A DNA stretch of 64,000 nt from Candidatus Fibrimonadaceae bacterium (GCA_031281345.1 JAITFN010000051.1:1-64000), one strand, 5' to 3'; positions 32,084 through 39,511 are shown, counted from the stretch's first letter. Translations and numbers: made by a program. The notes: a model not told the origin generated them from the letters alone.

Positions 32084-33357
32084 CCCTCAATATCCTCAAT
32101 CTCTTTTGGGATGCTAGCAGATAAATTCTCGCATCCCTTTTCTGTTATCAGCAGGTCGTCTTCTAAGCGAATGCCAATATCTTCTTTGTATAGAATTCCG
32201 TCTATTTTCATCTCAAAATGCCCATAAAGACCGGGCTCGTTTGAAATGAGCATATTTGGTTCCAAAGGGTTTTCCATATAGCTTCTGTTTGGCGAACCCT
32301 CGTGCACAATATCTCCTATCAAATGGCTAATGCCGTGCGGTTTCACTTTATAGCAGCGCTTCATTTTGCCGCCTCGTTTTGTAAAACGCTCTGCCAAAAG
32401 TTCTTCTAAAAAATGCCAAGCGTCTTTGCCCAAATCACTTAAAATTAAGCCTGCTTTAACGTTTTTTTCGTGAAATTTTTGAGTATCCAAAACAATATTG
32501 TAAAGCAACTTTTGCAAAGGGTTGAATTTTTTGCTCGCGGGAATTGTACGCGAAATATCGCAGCACACTGCGTTATAGCGGCAACCGAAATCCAAAAGGA
32601 TTAAATTATCGCTTTCAATAGCGGAGTCCCTCTTTGCATAGTGCAGGGTGCAGGCATTTTTCCCCGCAGCCACAATGCTCGGGAATGCCAGACCGTTATT
32701 TGTTTGAGAAAGCATCGCACAGTCAAGCTTGGCAGCCAATTCGCGTTCATTTTTGCAGCTTGAAATTTGGGATAAAATTTTTAAAAAAGCCTCTTTTGCA
32801 ATCACTTGAGCCTTTTTAGCAAGGGCAATTCTCTCTGGTTCCAAAATAACCCTTTGTGCAAGGTGAATTCTAGAAATATCCTTCACTTCTAATTTGTGGC
32901 GGCGCAATTTATTTATTATAGTTTTGTTTGAATAAATGTGTTTTTCTTTTAGGCTTGCAATTCGTTTTTTAAACCAAGGATTAAATTCTTCTAGAGGCAA
33001 AATTGTTTCAATACCTGTTATTTTTTTTATATGTGTACTCGGCAGTCCTAACCTTGTCCCATTCCAAAATTCTTTTTTTGCATCTTTTTCTTTCAAAAAT
33101 AAAATTTCCTGTTTTTGTTTGTTTGCAAAAGGGTCTAAAACCAAAATTGCTCCGCTTTGGTTTATACCCGTTAAATACAAAAATTCTGGATTTTGGCAAA
33201 TTCTATCTTCACTCTCTTTTTCAACAGAGGCGTAAACACATAGCGAATCTAAGTTTTTTAAGTGTTTTTGCCTTCGTTTCGCATAAAAGAGGGGAGCTTC
33301 GCTCTCAAATCCTTCTGAGAGGAAAACTTGGGAATATGTTTTAAAGATATTTTCCAT
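32080..33357 (-). CDS. pepP: Xaa-Pro aminopeptidase (M24B)
   Basis: Aminopeptidase P-like metalloenzyme of 425 residues releasing N-terminal residues before proline. The N-terminal AMP_N domain (about 10-150) includes FLYLTGINQSGA. The pita-bread catalytic domain shows the five metal ligands in LLDFGCRY, CDISRT, HGISHLIG, SNEPGLY and IRLEDDLL. Start ATG 33357 overlaps the 3' end of the transporter gene by 100 bp. The overlap is supported by TAAATT 6 nt before the ATG (context TTTCTAAATT) and by the family-typical N-terminus; no Shine-Dalgarno is seen. Confidence 0.92.
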   Translation of the reverse strand: MENIFKTYSQVFLSEGFESEAPLFYAKRRQKHLKNLDSLCVYASVEKESEDRICQNPEFLYLTGINQSGAILVLDPFANKQKQEILFLKEKDAKKEFWNGTRLGLPSTHIKKITGIETILPLEEFNPWFKKRIASLKEKHIYSNKTIINKLRRHKLEVKDISRIHLAQRVILEPERIALAKKAQVIAKEAFLKILSQISSCKNERELAAKLDCAMLSQTNNGLAFPSIVAAGKNACTLHYAKRDSAIESDNLILLDFGCRYNAVCCDISRTIPASKKFNPLQKLLYNIVLDTQKFHEKNVKAGLILSDLGKDAWHFLEELLAERFTKRGGKMKRCYKVKPHGISHLIGDIVHEGSPNRSYMENPLEPNMLISNEPGLYGHFEMKIDGILYKEDIGIRLEDDLLITEKGCENLSASIPKEIEDIEG

Positions 33358-35675
33358 TGAGAGAATTTAGAAACAAGTTTTTGTGGCTGGATGAGCATTT
33401 TGAATAGTTTATTCAAGTTGAATGGCATTATCTTTTCTTTTATCAAAAGCGGTTGAATAAGGGCAAATAGCAATATTGGCGGCAAAGAAGCTATAATGGA
33501 GAAAGCCATTAAGAGTTCTGGTCGGTTTGCAAGCTGACCAACAGTGAGCCTTATTCCAACGGGCAGGGTAGCCGTAGTTGAATCGGTAGAGAGAATCCAT
33601 ATAAATAAAATCTCGTCCCAAGCAAATAGGAATATATAAACCAAGCATATTGCAAGAGAGGGCAAAATTATTGGAATAATTATTTTCCAAAATGTTGTCC
33701 AAGGCGTGCAGCCGTCTATCATAGCCGATTCTTCCAAATTTGGTGGAATTGCTTTAAACATATTGAACAAAAATTGCACTGCCAATGGCAAGAAAAACGC
33801 AATGTTTACGAGTATTATAATTGTGAAATTATTGAATAGCTGAAAAGATTTCATTTGCAAAATATTAAATATAACAAAAATGGGAATTAAAAAAGGCAAG
33901 CTAGAAAGCACTTGCGAAGACAGCATAATTCTTGCAAAGGCTGCTTTGCCAAAAAATCTAAGGCGAGATATGGCATAGCTAGGCAGTATTGCTAAAAAGG
34001 TGCAAAGCAGGCTTATGGATAAACTCAGCAATATGGAATTTTTGAAGAATGGGCCTATAGGCATAATTTTTATTATATCTTGATAATTATTCCACTGAAA
34101 CGTACGTTTGCCTTTTGGAATGGAGCTAGTTTGAATGTTGAGATTTGATTCGTTCAAAACCTCAAGTTTTCCATCGCCATAGCCTACCCATTTATATCCA
34201 TTTTTGTTTTCGTAATAAGAACTTATTGATGAATAGTCAAGCGTTTGTTCTTGCTCTTGTTCTTGCTTTTGCTCGATTTTGAAATTATCGTAGTTAAATA
34301 TTAGGTTTCTTGTTCCATAGTTTATGGAAATTTTCCTGTTTAGCAATGTTTTTTCGCTTGGCAGAGGTACTTTCTCCTCTGGTATTGATACTTTTGGCTC
34401 TGGCAATGCTTTTTTGCCTAGCGGTGTTTTTTTGGCCTGCGAAGGCGGTGGCTTTTTGGCTGGCAACCCTTTTTTGCTTGGCAATACAATTATCTCATCT
34501 TGGAGTATTATTTCGTTTGGCAATACTTTTTCTTTTGGTGGTGGTTCTTCATAAACTTTGATATATAAATTTTGCCCAGCCAAATCTGGCAATTCATGTT
34601 CGCCAAACATAACATTGCGGATTATTTTTCTAGATTCAAGCTGAATAATGCTAAATCCAATATCGTGCACAACTAAAATAGTATCGTTTTGAATAGTACT
34701 GGGTTTTGATATTTTAACTATGTTTTGAACAGAGGCATTCGGAAGCCCTGTTGCTTCTGTAATCCAGGTTACCTGTTTTGTTTCTGTATCAAAAATGGCA
34801 ACTCCCGGGAAAAAATCGCCACGAACGCCTATTGCAACTTTGTTTTCGGTTGCCAAAATTGCAAGCCCAGAGCTTACTATTTGGCTAATCCATAAATCTT
34901 GCCAAGGAAAAAATTTTACACGCGATATTTCGTTTGGAAAGAGTTCCGATAAGCAAAAACGAAACAGCAAATGTTTTTCTTTTTCAGAGATATTTTTATT
35001 TTTCTTCAAGTTGTATATTTGCGGATTAAGCCAGTCTTCCCGTTTTGTCCAGTAATCCAAAATTGAATTTAGAATTTTATCGTTTGCTAAAATCCAATTG
35101 AGTTGGTTTATTATTTCTTCAGATTCAAAAAATTTAAATCCAACCAAAGATGACACAGTTATATTTTCGTTTTCACTTGGAAGTGCTGGAGCTGTATTCA
35201 AGTAATTTGCTAGCTCTACAAAATGCTTTGGCAAAACATCGCCAGAAACCAAAAATCTAGATTGGTCAAAATTTTCATAGCTATTTCTAAAGAAATTCCA
35301 ATCGTAAGATTTTTTTTCTTGTTTGTCTTTCATATCTATTTCTATTAAACCTCTATTTGCGCTAAACGCCCAAAGGCTTGCTTTATTTTGCGCATAAACA
35401 GTTGAAACGGAATTTATATTTAAAATTTCTTTGCCTTCAAAGTTGCGTATATATCCCAAATTTGTGGCAACAATTATATCTTTTTCTGTTGGTACAAAAA
35501 ATGTTACCTTGTCGTTTCTTTTTTGAGGGAAAAAAACAGATTTCTGAATGTCTTCTGAATTTAATATGGATAGCCAAACTATGAATAATACAGGGAGTGA
35601 ACTTATTAACGCCAAAACCCATGCCACAGCTATTTTTTCACGTCTGAAATTTATACGTTTGAAATAATTTAGCAT
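33258..35675 (-). CDS. MalG-type ABC permease with a giant periplasmic insertion
   Basis: An 805-residue protein, about 500 more than a normal MalG-type (CUT1) permease. One membrane helix at about 16-38 is followed by a large extracytoplasmic region (about 40-535), then a normal binding-protein-dependent permease core (about 540-780). The core has the EAA loop EESAMIDGCTPWTTFWKIIIP near residue 648. The insertion, placed where MalG has its first periplasmic loop, reads like beta-propeller or sensor repeats (IIVATNLGYIRNFEGKEI, LWAFSANRGLIEID, VAIGVRGDFFPGVAIFDTETK). It ends with a Pro/Lys-rich segment of imperfect LPxKK units (about 377-448). It is the fifth gene of a transporter operon, 1 nt after the MalF-type gene. 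The fusion is real in frame; the role of the insertion is unknown. Confidence 0.85.
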   Translation of the reverse strand: MLNYFKRINFRREKIAVAWVLALISSLPVLFIVWLSILNSEDIQKSVFFPQKRNDKVTFFVPTEKDIIVATNLGYIRNFEGKEILNINSVSTVYAQNKASLWAFSANRGLIEIDMKDKQEKKSYDWNFFRNSYENFDQSRFLVSGDVLPKHFVELANYLNTAPALPSENENITVSSLVGFKFFESEEIINQLNWILANDKILNSILDYWTKREDWLNPQIYNLKKNKNISEKEKHLLFRFCLSELFPNEISRVKFFPWQDLWISQIVSSGLAILATENKVAIGVRGDFFPGVAIFDTETKQVTWITEATGLPNASVQNIVKISKPSTIQNDTILVVHDIGFSIIQLESRKIIRNVMFGEHELPDLAGQNLYIKVYEEPPPKEKVLPNEIILQDEIIVLPSKKGLPAKKPPPSQAKKTPLGKKALPEPKVSIPEEKVPLPSEKTLLNRKISINYGTRNLIFNYDNFKIEQKQEQEQEQTLDYSSISSYYENKNGYKWVGYGDGKLEVLNESNLNIQTSSIPKGKRTFQWNNYQDIIKIMPIGPFFKNSILLSLSISLLCTFLAILPSYAISRLRFFGKAAFARIMLSSQVLSSLPFLIPIFVIFNILQMKSFQLFNNFTIIILVNIAFFLPLAVQFLFNMFKAIPPNLEESAMIDGCTPWTTFWKIIIPIILPSLAICLVYIFLFAWDEILFIWILSTDSTTATLPVGIRLTVGQLANRPELLMAFSIIASLPPILLFALIQPLLIKEKIMPFNLNKLFKMLIQPQKLVSKFSQWKISLKHIPKFSSQKDLRAKLPSFMRNEGKNT

Positions 35676-35676
35676 A

Positions 35677-36612
35677 TCAGTTTCCGTTTAAGTTTTTGTA
35701 ATAATATAAAACAGAAATTCCAACCATTAGCATTAGCATTGTAGATAGCGCAGCTCCAATTCCCAAATTCCAATACTGGAACGCTGTGCGGAATATATAT
35801 GGAATAATCATATCTGCGTTTTTGCTTGGAGTTATGGTTCCGGTGCCAAACATCATAACAACAATATTGAAATTGTAAATGTTTATCACAAAATTTTGAA
35901 TTAACACAGCTACCAAAACAGGGCGAAGTATGGGAACTGTTATGTAAAAGAATTTATCAATTTTATCTGCTCCGTCCATAGTTGCGGCTCTGTCTATATC
36001 ACTGTGGATGGAATTTAAACCTGCCAAAAACAAAAGCATTGAATACGGCCAGTAGTGCCATATAGCGGGAATAGCCACGGTTAGCACGGAGTATTTATGG
36101 TCAAGCCATCTCGGTGGTATTAATTGCCCATCTTGGTTATAGCTCCATCCCACTCCCATCCAAGACGAAATCGCATCAATGTCCAGCATATCGAACAGTA
36201 TAAAATTTATGAGGCTGTTGTCTTGCTGAAAAACATAACCAAAAAAAATTCCAACCACATAAGTTGGTATAGACCACGCAACCATAATTAAAAGTATAAC
36301 AATTCCTCTTCCCTTAAAAGGCTCTCTTAAACAAATAGCCGCAAGCAACCCTACAAGGCTCACGCATAAGGTGGTTAGTATGGTATATATTGTGGAATTT
36401 TTAACAGCACTGATAAAACCATCTTGCATAATGGCATCGTAATAATTGTCAAAAAATACAAAAGAATGGAACGACCATAAATCTGGGGCATTTCCTATGT
36501 CTAATGTGCTTATAACGGTATTGCACAAAACAGGCAATATTAAAAAAAACAAGAGCAGAATGCTTGTTGGCAAAGCAAAAAACAATGCTATTCTGTTGTT
36601 CTGTCGTTTCAT
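35677..36612 (-). CDS. MalF-type ABC sugar permease
   Basis: Inner-membrane permease of 311 residues of the carbohydrate uptake (CUT1) class. About six membrane helices are visible. The EAA loop (DIDRAATMDGADKIDKFFYITVPILRP, about 205-230) contacts the ATPase. It contains an unusual insertion of about 40 residues rich in aromatic and acidic residues between helices (around FGYVFQQDNSLINFILFDMLDIDAIS). The start ATG overlaps the binding-protein gene by 4 nt. Its partner permease is the following fusion gene. Confidence 0.9.
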   Translation of the reverse strand: MKRQNNRIALFFALPTSILLLFFLILPVLCNTVISTLDIGNAPDLWSFHSFVFFDNYYDAIMQDGFISAVKNSTIYTILTTLCVSLVGLLAAICLREPFKGRGIVILLIMVAWSIPTYVVGIFFGYVFQQDNSLINFILFDMLDIDAISSWMGVGWSYNQDGQLIPPRWLDHKYSVLTVAIPAIWHYWPYSMLLFLAGLNSIHSDIDRAATMDGADKIDKFFYITVPILRPVLVAVLIQNFVINIYNFNIVVMMFGTGTITPSKNADMIIPYIFRTAFQYWNLGIGAALSTMLMLMVGISVLYYYKNLNGN

Positions 36613-37964
36613 AATTTCTTGTTATGCCTTTTTTGAAAGTCCTTGCCTATAATGACGTTTATATCGTTGTCTGCTTTTTTAAGTTCATCTTCTATTTTGC
36701 TTTGTGGCCATTGCTTTCCTTCTGAGCTAGCTATTATGTTGAAAATGTTGTTAAATCTTTTCACCAAAACATCGTTTTCTATTGAACTCCAAAAAGGCAC
36801 AGCGGGGTAGCTCAGCCCGTTTTCTACTATTTTTTGGAATATCTTGCGATTTTTATTTTCCGAAAAATAAGGCAGATTATATGTTTCCGCTAGTGCTGGC
36901 AAATAACCAGACATTTTAGAAAATTTAAGCTGAACATCGCTTTGAGTTGTTAAATATCTTAAAAGGGTCAAAGATTCTTTTTTTATTTTTGTCGCTTTGA
37001 AAATTCCCAAATTTGAGCCACCCAAAAAATACTTTCCTGGTTGGTCTTTTTTTGCAGTTGGCGGAACTATGCAACCATAATTTACCGCTTGTGAGTTTGA
37101 GCCTTGCAAAAGGTTTTGATTTTCAAGATAAAGGACTCTTTGCGTTGTTTCTCCTATAAAAGCGGTTTTGCCTTGGTCAAAATCGCTGTTCACGCCGGCT
37201 GTTGTTTTATCTAAATTGGAATAATCGTTATAGCCGTTTTTCACAAAGTCTAAGTAAAAATAAATGCCATCTAAAGTTTTGCTGTCTAGCAAATTGCTCT
37301 TTGATAAATCTTTGTTCAAAAAAGAACCTCCCGCACTGAAAATCCAAGATGCAAAATTATGAACAATGTTCCAATCGTTCTTTGCTGGATATTCCATTGG
37401 GCTTACAATTTTATCGTTTATCGGTATGTTTGATTCTTTTATTTTTTGTAAAACCTCTTTGAATTTTTCCCTTGAACTTATTGTATTTGGGTCTATATGC
37501 AGTACCTTTAAAACATCCTCGCTATAATAAAATGGGCGTACATCCAAAAACCAGGGAAGCGATGTGATGCTGGTTGAATTTTTGGGTTTCATTGTTTCTC
37601 TGGATCCTGTTATAAATAGTTCTGGATTTCCCCAGATTTCAATAATTGAATCTAAAGGCATAAGAGCGTCAATATCGGTGAGCGATGCAGCCCAAGTTGA
37701 AGGAACTTGAGCAACATCTGGGCCATTGCGGGTTGCTGCTGCCAAATTCAATTTTGATAAACCGCTTCCCCAATCCAAAATGGTAACTTCAACTTTTAAC
37801 CCCGGATTTTCAACGTGAAAACCTTTTAAAATTTTATTCATATCGTCTAGTGGGTTTGGGCTATTGTTGAAAACCCATAGGTGTATTATTTTTTCAGAAC
37901 GCGTTTTCTCTTTGCATCCGCAAAAAAAGCAAAGCAGTAAAATGGGTACCAAAAATTTCATCAT
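36609..37964 (-). CDS. Extracellular solute-binding lipoprotein (family 1)
   Basis: Binding protein of 451 residues for the sugar-type ABC importer. Lipobox Cys at about residue 17 (CFFCGC). The family-1 pattern is visible in LDDMNKILKGFHVENPGLKVEVTILDWGSGLSKL, GPDVAQVPSTWAASL, and the C-terminal AALIYS-like block replaced here by GKTAFIGETTQRVLYL and YFLGGSNLGIFKATKIKKES. Ligand is not predictable; oligosaccharides or glycerol-phosphates are usual for this family. Two adjacent ATGs are possible starts. It overlaps both neighbours by 4 nt, so stoichiometry is coupled. Confidence 0.9.
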   Translation of the reverse strand: MMKFLVPILLLCFFCGCKEKTRSEKIIHLWVFNNSPNPLDDMNKILKGFHVENPGLKVEVTILDWGSGLSKLNLAAATRNGPDVAQVPSTWAASLTDIDALMPLDSIIEIWGNPELFITGSRETMKPKNSTSITSLPWFLDVRPFYYSEDVLKVLHIDPNTISSREKFKEVLQKIKESNIPINDKIVSPMEYPAKNDWNIVHNFASWIFSAGGSFLNKDLSKSNLLDSKTLDGIYFYLDFVKNGYNDYSNLDKTTAGVNSDFDQGKTAFIGETTQRVLYLENQNLLQGSNSQAVNYGCIVPPTAKKDQPGKYFLGGSNLGIFKATKIKKESLTLLRYLTTQSDVQLKFSKMSGYLPALAETYNLPYFSENKNRKIFQKIVENGLSYPAVPFWSSIENDVLVKRFNNIFNIIASSEGKQWPQSKIEDELKKADNDINVIIGKDFQKRHNKKL

Positions 37965-39055
37965 ATCACAAGTTTTCCTTTTGTGAATAGGTGAATTTCG
38001 TTCTGGTCCGGTTCAACGTACACAGTTTCTCCAAGATCATAGCGCTTGTTCATCGGTACCTCAACCGCCAAGGTCTGATGTTCCCTAGAAACATAAATTA
38101 TGGATTGTGAGCCTGCATATTCTTGCATTTCCACTATCATCGGGACTGTATATGGGCTTTCTTCAGCGGCAATTTTTAAATGTTCCGCTCTAATGCCTAT
38201 TTTTGCCTTTGTATAATGCTTTAGAACATTTTTCAGTTTTAGCGGAATTTCCACGGAATAATTCGCATTTATGAAATTTAAAGTGATATGGCCGTTTTCT
38301 TCTATTGTCTCAAATTCAACGAAATTCATTTCTGGATATCCTATAAATCTCGCTACAGATTCGTTTGCAGGTTGGTTATAAAGTTCGTAGTTTGTGCCAA
38401 CTTGCAAGATTATTCCTTTGTTTATGCAAACTATGCGGTTGCTTAGAGTCATGGCTTCGGAAGGGTTATGTGTTGCATACATAACGGTTGCTTGCAAATT
38501 TATGCAAAACCGCTTTATTATGGATTGTATTTTTATTTTGGATTGAGAATCCAGCTCGGAAATAGGTTCATCTAGAATTAGAACTTGAGGGTGTTTCACA
38601 AAAGCACGTGCGAGTGCCACAAGCTGCCTTTCCGAAATAGGCAATGCATCTGGTTTCAAATCCATTATTTTTGGTATATCCAATAAATCTTCAATTTCTG
38701 CTATTCTTGTGTTTATTGTGCTTTTGGGAATGTTCGCTAGTTTAAGCCCAAATTCAAGATTTTTTCGCACGGTTAAATGAGGGTAAAGAGCTTGGGAGCG
38801 AAACACCATTGCTAGATTTTCGTATTTGGGAGAAAATTCGCTTAAAGTTTTTCCGTTGAAAAGCACGTTTCCAGAATCGGGTTCGGTTAAACCAGCTACA
38901 ATCCTGAGTATGCGAGACTTTCCGCTGTTAATGGGGCCGGTTAGCGTTATGAATTCGCCTGCTTTTACCTCTAGAGAAATATCATTTAGCAGAACTTCAT
39001 TAGTTTGTCCCTTTTTTTCGTATAACGTAATTCTATTTAATGATATATTTACCAT
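37961..39055 (-). CDS. MalK-type ABC ATPase with degenerate signature motif
   Basis: ATPase of 364 residues with the MalK layout: nucleotide-binding domain (about 1-235) and C-terminal regulatory OB-fold (about 240-364). Walker A reads GPINSGKS (usable), the Q-loop VFRSQALYPHLTV, Walker B VLILDEPISELD and the H-switch ATHNPSEAM are present. The ABC signature, normally LSGGQ, reads LPISE in DALPISERQLVALARAF, losing the Ser and both Gly that contact ATP across the dimer. This should weaken ATP hydrolysis unless compensated. The gene starts 9 nt after the receiver-like gene and overlaps the binding-protein gene by 4 nt. Confidence 0.88.
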   Translation of the reverse strand: MVNISLNRITLYEKKGQTNEVLLNDISLEVKAGEFITLTGPINSGKSRILRIVAGLTEPDSGNVLFNGKTLSEFSPKYENLAMVFRSQALYPHLTVRKNLEFGLKLANIPKSTINTRIAEIEDLLDIPKIMDLKPDALPISERQLVALARAFVKHPQVLILDEPISELDSQSKIKIQSIIKRFCINLQATVMYATHNPSEAMTLSNRIVCINKGIILQVGTNYELYNQPANESVARFIGYPEMNFVEFETIEENGHITLNFINANYSVEIPLKLKNVLKHYTKAKIGIRAEHLKIAAEESPYTVPMIVEMQEYAGSQSIIYVSREHQTLAVEVPMNKRYDLGETVYVEPDQNEIHLFTKGKLVI

Positions 39056-39064
39056 AGCTTTTGC

Positions 39065-39511
39065 CTACTGCTGTTCACCTTCTGGTGGGTTAGCGTTTAA
39101 GTTATCTTGAACAAATAATTTACGGATTGGTTCAAAGTACATTTCGCTTTGCTCGTTATCCCTATTGAGGCGGGAATAGTTCAGCGCAACAAGCATTATT
39201 TCCAAATTGTTGTTTGCCGTTTTAACGAACTCGCTTGTGGACACACCCTCTTCCATTAAGTCAACAACATAAGTGTCCCATTCCTCTTTTTCGGAAAGCT
39301 CGGTTGCTTTTTCTTCATTGTTCACATAACGTATGGTGGCATACGGCAAAAGAAAAGCTAAAGTTTCCTCCACCTGAGGCTGGTTCTCTTTGTCTTCAAT
39401 CCAAACTAAAATGCGGCGAGACTTGTAATCATAAACCTGCTGCGAAATAGGTTTTTCTTCATCAAGTTCCTCGTAATCCTCAAAATCTTCATCTTCTTCA
39501 AGTTTTACCAT
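39065..39511 (-). CDS. Acidic pseudo-receiver protein heading the transporter operon
   Basis: A 148-residue protein with a very acidic N-terminus (EEDEDFEDYEELDEE) followed by a receiver-like alpha/beta domain (about 32-135). Strand 1 (RRILVWIEDKE) offers acidic residues, and strand 3 (DTYVVDLMEEG) has an Asp at the phosphorylation position. The conserved Thr/Ser after strand 4 and the Lys-Pro of strand 5 are not evident, so phosphoswitching is uncertain. The message is predicted to be leaderless (TATATT 7 nt before ATG). Being first in the operon, 9 nt before the MalK-type gene, it may couple a signal to transport; this is inference. Confidence 0.55.
   Translation of the reverse strand: MVKLEEDEDFEDYEELDEEKPISQQVYDYKSRRILVWIEDKENQPQVEETLAFLLPYATIRYVNNEEKATELSEKEEWDTYVVDLMEEGVSTSEFVKTANNNLEIMLVALNYSRLNRDNEQSEMYFEPIRKLFVQDNLNANPPEGEQQ

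Follow-up and report, generated by a model that had tools for sequence, protein, structure and literature searches.

In E. coli, the maltose-binding protein MalE touches MalF at its P2 loop and MalG at its P1 loop (Daus et al. 2007, cited in PMC3150292), and the same article gives residues 91-271 as MalF-P2. Cellodextrin uptake is described for C. thermocellum: CbpB takes ligands from cellobiose to cellopentaose, the organism has no cellodextrin importer other than the CbpB transporter, and deletion of this transporter B abolishes cellulosome induction (PMC9601137). In F. succinogenes, the mechanism of cellodextrin transport was stated to be unknown (PMC6851124). A β-glucoside importer is encoded in Thermus on pTT27 (TT_RS10335-RS10350), with betaGlyBP as its binding protein. 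How does a permease of the same class, carrying a very large periplasmic domain in Fibrobacterota, compare with these systems?

The window, by which we mean the whole 64,000-nucleotide stretch of DNA analysed (Candidatus Fibrimonadaceae bacterium, GCA_031281345.1, JAITFN010000051.1:1-64000), contains one unbroken ORF for a permease of 805 aa (Table 1), with its ATG at 35675, its stop at 33258 and no internal stops; the plus strand over 33258-35675 has many stops. Hydropathy shows a segment at residues 15-33, nothing at 34-546 and then the TM2-6 region. The sole Pfam domain is BPD_transp_1 (residues 587-744, E=1.8e-10, 41.3 bits for a cut-off of 26.4), and alignment to the SugB and MalG structures places a MalG/SugB-type core at about residues 510-745. 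The EAA loop reads E648-E649-A651-x3-G655, and its EAA residues are invariant across the orthologue alignment (27 frames, window included). A six-helix core topology follows from hydropathy only, together with the alignment to the SugB/MalG structures, and the operon supplies the partner permease, solute-binding protein (SBP) and MalK-like ATPase of a type I importer. Judged from its sequence, the protein is the MalG-type subunit in an ABC importer of type I (CUT1-like). The first-pass annotation had described a single 805-residue frame with one N-terminal helix and a complete permease core with an EAA loop, and all of this stands, with the frame on the minus strand. Apart from the window protein, the C-terminal tail is present only in that of the closest relative, G008, and the other orthologues lack it. 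The frame runs 100 bases (33258-33357) into the beginning of the M24 peptidase ORF downstream, and a comparable overlap is seen in G008.

Table 1. Features of the importer locus, in positions of the window
Feature	Position	Strand	Basis
MalG-type ABC permease, 805 aa, carrying the periplasmic insertion	33258..35675	-	ORF; Pfam BPD_transp_1; 26 full-length orthologues
TM1, residues 15-33	35577..35633	-	Hydropathy; alignment to Thermus permease TM1
Inserted periplasmic domain, residues ~52-519, β-propeller (predicted) plus helical insertion	34119..35522	-	Thermus permease alignment; AlphaFold; BT4663 profile match
Helical insertion in propeller, residues 126-262, blades 2/3	34890..35300	-	AlphaFold; missing from g15 orthologues
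Module of ~62 residues with homology to the insertion in BamA POTRA3	34929..35126	-	Profile comparisons
Pro/Lys-rich loop, residues 383-442, disordered, within blade 5	34350..34529	-	pLDDT; ω; orthologue alignment
Permease core, TM2-6 with EAA loop, residues 534-747	33435..34076	-	Pfam; alignments; hydropathy; ω
C-terminal tail, residues 748-805	33261..33434	-	ORF; orthologue alignment; ω
MalF-type permease, 311 aa, no P2-like domain	35677..36612	-	Pfam; 33% identity to 306-aa Thermus permease
SBP, cellodextrin/β-glucoside type	36609..37964	-	Pfam; profile matches; alignments
MalK/UgpC-type ATPase with TOBE domain	37961..39055	-	Pfam; homology
First operon gene, receiver-like protein (weak)	39065..39511	-	Synteny; A6 profile

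Where do the additional residues sit? Alignment with the MalG-type permease of Thermus (TT_RS10345) reveals a clean insertion of ~468 residues between Thermus residues 48 and 50, corresponding to window residues ~52-519, and the flanking FP and W-x-NY motifs are retained on both sides. This site is the TM1-TM2 loop, that is, the P1 loop of MalG, and we speak of an insertion into that loop because the matching permease of the Thermus operon is a plain protein of 285 residues. The earlier description of a permease fused to a periplasmic domain is right in that both belong to the same protein, but the domain is inserted internally in the TM1-TM2 loop and is not an end fusion. The comparison that had been drawn with the large loop of E. 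coli MalF is apt, as the insertion occupies the MalG P1 loop, and it marks this loop as a site able to accept a large domain.

The operon runs in the order receiver-like small protein, ATPase, SBP, MalF-type permease and propeller-bearing MalG-type permease. Apart from gaps at some contig ends, the Fibrobacteraceae carriers conserve this order, as does the genus g15, there without the small protein; the downstream genes vary among carriers. The small protein, conserved in carriers, resembles a degenerate receiver domain, with weak matches: its profile (A6) hits response-regulator chains only, at E=0.005-0.08. The MalF-type subunit aligns with its Thermus counterpart and has no P2-like domain. 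The SBP matches Thermus betaGlyBP (E=7e-63) and CbpB of C. thermocellum (E=5e-62), both over the full length, at an identity to characterised binders of only about 29%. Conservation of the ligand contacts was examined at the level of motifs, of which PWF, NDWN.VHN, AGG and GGSNL are shared. Because of the full-length SBP matches, and because the Thermus operon includes a GH1 β-glucosidase gene, the substrate is likely to be cello-oligosaccharides or other β-glucosides. There is no GH1 gene in the window operon, nor among the few neighbours scanned elsewhere; such a linked gene, as in Thermus, is not obligatory for a cellodextrin/β-glucoside importer.

SBPs of the CbpB type are also found away from permeases. 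In genera without the permease, and as second copies in carriers, they adjoin GGDEF proteins, with dCache/HAMP where scanned (L116:8966-12275, L117:7116-10442, L118:8945-12354, L119:1933-5175, L120:9130-12318 and L121:6315-10343). This arrangement suggests a signalling use for these SBPs, and it may bear on the CbpB-like protein Fisuc_0617/FSU_1047 of F. succinogenes. At another locus (L122:8920-12667), a CbpB-like SBP gene overlaps another whose product joins an S13 D-Ala-D-Ala carboxypeptidase to an AmiA-like amidase domain.

The proposed survey of Fibrobacterota yielded 26 orthologues with the same layout, 601-783 aa long, all single-frame and with the fusion intact. They come from 10 genomes of the window's genus, six further genera of its family and g15, a genus of another family in the same class. 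From named records of its members, among them the carrier Fibrobacter intestinalis ATCC 43854, we infer the family to be Fibrobacteraceae. The orthologue of G008 has 783 residues, those of the other congeners 664-679, those of other family members 724-750 (one has 601) and those of g15 612-670. Could the long frame be an assembly or sequencing error joining two genes? Nothing was found in favour of this explanation, and 26 single-frame orthologues, including that of F. intestinalis ATCC 43854, speak against it; we reject it, its probability being practically nil. Genera g2 to g5 lack the permease, and no such permease occurs in the sister family f2. A genome scan with two peptide patterns, which would miss g15-like forms, returned nine loci, all in Fibrobacterota, and a plasmid tblastn with the g15 protein gave no record covering 80%; propeller-bearing MalG permeases in other phyla are possible.

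What is the inserted domain? AlphaFold returned an ordered model for residues 37-533 (mean pLDDT 81.7; 400 of the 497 residues at 70 or above), with six four-stranded blades predicted in the window protein and seven in a Fibrobacter-type model, as counted from DSSP strand strings and not from coordinates. The helices of the ~137-residue insertion between blades 2 and 3 (residues 126-262) have pLDDT values of 80-96. Only one long part of the model is disordered, the Pro/Lys stretch at residues 383-442 (pLDDT below 50). The large, ordered, propeller-like extracytoplasmic domain anticipated by the first-pass annotation is therefore supported, and its converse, that no ordered domain would emerge, is excluded by structure prediction. 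The Pro/Lys (LPxKK) repeats to which it gave prominence do exist, but they form a lineage-specific loop, found in the window and G008 and missing from all other orthologues. Being lineage-specific and disordered, the loop (ω 0.32, with 14 gaps, against G008) was rejected as a key or defining feature.

Foldseek matched mostly generic propellers, and because fold search was so unspecific a sequence profile was preferred for finding the nearest relative. The best matches of the domain profile are the periplasmic domain of the heparin sensor BT4663 (E=4e-15) and BT4673 (E=4e-8). Pfam Reg_prop reaches only E=0.11, in two of the 18 domain members, and PQQ_2 appears in seven of them at up to 2.9e-6. 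Despite the PQQ_2 matches, the domain is not BamB, since it sits inside a permease and is not a lipoprotein. A homologue of MalF-P2 was likewise rejected: the host subunit is of the MalG type, there is no MalF_P2 match and the predicted fold is a propeller. The layout of a two-component sensor, a double propeller with a kinase, was not found either, as the protein has a single propeller of 6-7 blades and no kinase.

Is the propeller nevertheless a sensor? As part of a transceptor, it would act like the propellers of Bacteroides hybrid two-component systems, binding oligosaccharide and either altering transport or signalling via the ATPase and the receiver-like protein. Its best profile matches are indeed sensor propellers, nearly every Fibrobacteraceae carrier with intact flanks has a receiver-like gene at the head of the operon, SBP homologues elsewhere in the family adjoin GGDEF genes, and cellulosome induction in C. 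thermocellum is lost with transporter B. We still consider this unlikely, given the weakness of the receiver assignment and the poor fit between a conserved ligand pocket and the changes seen in the propeller: the window genus has lost one blade and g8 several, and g1 has lost the WWE motif of blade 3. Alternatively, the propeller could itself be an additional binding site that feeds the importer, capturing periplasmic cellodextrin or a different polysaccharide directly. Conserved propeller aromatics such as W258 and W262 would suit this role, as would the cellodextrin-type operon, but a dedicated binding protein is already present, no carbohydrate-binding family was matched in Pfam and the number of blades varies between lineages, which makes such a capture domain fairly improbable.

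The evolutionary rates address a further possibility, that the domain was acquired once and retained with little function, as a spacer or drifting decoration. Between the window and G008 (86% aa identity overall), ω is 0.06 in the permease core, 0.16-0.17 over the propeller and helical insert and 0.54 in the C-terminal tail. Between genera, conservation of the module (described below) and blades 3-4 (0.36-0.39) is about that of the core (0.39), and falls to 0.16 in the last blades. The fast-evolving last blades, the blade losses and the disordered Pro/Lys loop are what a drifting domain would show; the low ω over propeller and module, the conservation of module and blades 3-4 and the presence of the inserted domain in every orthologue found make this reading very improbable.

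An unexpected relative of part of the domain came from scanning 168 genomes of the phylum with the domain profile (A3). Besides the permease, it matched, weakly but repeatedly (E 7e-7 to 9e-4), a single region of one further protein, ~920-1000 residues long, in 43 of the family's genomes. This second protein is BamA, with POTRA domains and an Omp85 barrel, and the matched region lies inside an insertion at BamA residues 261-402, within POTRA3. Comparing the permease module with BamA, hhalign gave a probability of 96% (E=2e-9, 61 columns), and 95.7% with a wider BamA set. Of the 22 permeases that carry the module, a profile built from BamA only recovered 21, all but L017, at E 6e-6 to 0.01; it recovered no other real protein, and no reversed or shuffled decoy scored below E=0.2. 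The reciprocal profile, the decoys and the exact coincidence with the BamA insertion lead us to reject a chance match, and on these profile comparisons the ~62-residue module and the insertion in BamA POTRA3 are homologous. A joint profile finds a single copy, in BamA, in most genomes of the family and generally two, in BamA and the permease, in permease carriers, one being missing in a few incomplete assemblies; as both groups are in this profile, its E-values do not add independently to the case for homology. Outside the family no genome scores, and four marginal other matches (E=0.003-0.005) are probably due to chance. Among the 168 genomes, only BamA and the permease carry the module convincingly.

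The BamA insertion is a feature in its own right: ~140 helical residues in POTRA3, present in all Fibrobacterales BamA examined (e.g. L071:679-3447, plus strand, residues 261-402) and covered by no Pfam family. PQQ_2 propellers of the BamB type reach the Pfam cut-off in only two of 19 Fibrobacteraceae genomes searched, G000 and relatives.

In families f3 to f11, BamA lacks the insertion (the matches break at ~260/403, with few residues between). BamA of the sister family f2 has it (E down to 6e-17), without matching the permease profile, and the g15 permease has the propeller without the helical insertion. The simplest history would be that the insertion arose in BamA within the order and was then copied into the permease propeller in Fibrobacteraceae. 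The g15 form also indicates that the architecture can do without the module. The correlation between permease and BamA distances (r=0.885) points to largely vertical inheritance after the copying; horizontal shuffling within the family is not supported.

What, then, could the domain do? Reading the insertion and its site, the operon, the SBP family, the conservation and the homology to BamA from sequence, and the fold class from prediction, we tentatively favour, with a confidence somewhat under even, a non-catalytic periplasmic docking platform on a cellodextrin-type importer. A short MalG P1 loop would have received a sensor-type β-propeller, which in Fibrobacteraceae would have gained the helical module related to that of BamA. 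Placed at the P1 loop, the normal meeting point with the binding protein, the domain may hold or guide that protein, and the module may bind BamA itself or an envelope partner that BamA POTRA3 recognises too. Such docking would hold the importer close to where sugar enters. Here we infer the contact with the SBP, a partner for the module and any effect on transport. Docking is preferred to a ligand pocket made up of the propeller in its entirety because the module and blades 3-4 are conserved and the last blades are not, and because L012, which has lost several blades, keeps the module. The importer may in this way be tied to other envelope machinery. The first-pass annotation had suggested that the insertion could capture polymer ends, sense load or span to peptidoglycan or the outer membrane; these are hypothetical roles, and a single result, the helical module common to the permease and the outer-membrane protein BamA, has a bearing on spanning. 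A stronger version, in which the module forms a physical bridge between the inner-membrane importer and the outer-membrane BAM machine, either directly or via a common partner, has a low probability in our view; a common module alone is no proof of a common partner. If true, it would create a trans-envelope station, with sugar import beside outer-membrane protein assembly or uptake porins. With its module common to BamA, the importer offers a way to test whether sugar import at the inner membrane is linked to outer-membrane machinery in a major lineage of cellulose degraders.

Taken singly, the transporter, the propeller class and the BamA scaffold are each known. Literature searches found no description of a propeller-in-permease architecture or of the BamA POTRA3 insertion; what we have not found described is the combination of propeller and permease, and a module common to an inner-membrane permease and BamA, in a survey that was limited outside Fibrobacterota. 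How close are the known systems? The module of Fibrobacterales BamA (Omp85) is a homologous helical module of ~62 residues, but its host protein and membrane differ, and it lies inside a POTRA domain instead of a propeller. Bacteroides BT4663 and BT4673, of the Reg_prop type and the best profile match of the window propeller, are double propellers on a histidine kinase, unlike the single propeller in a permease loop. E. coli MalFGK2-E also has a large periplasmic domain in a core loop of a type I importer, near the binding protein; this domain has ~181 residues in MalF, against ~468 in the MalG-type subunit here, and the MalF-type partner of the window has no P2, unlike E. coli MalF. The E. 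coli MalF-P2 domain is not a propeller. Transporter B of C. thermocellum shares an SBP homologous over its full length and a cellulolytic host, but its ATPase is encoded elsewhere, and no inserted domain is mentioned in the text consulted. The Thermus β-glucoside importer has the same order of binding protein, MalF-type and MalG-type permease, at 29%, 33% and 38% identity to the window proteins, respectively, and its permease core is 62-63% identical to that of g15. It has the GH1 β-glucosidase gene adjacent and no adjacent ATPase gene, and its MalG-type permease has a short P1 loop without propeller; the importer of the window, probably of the cellodextrin type, has an accessory domain that its Thermus relative lacks.
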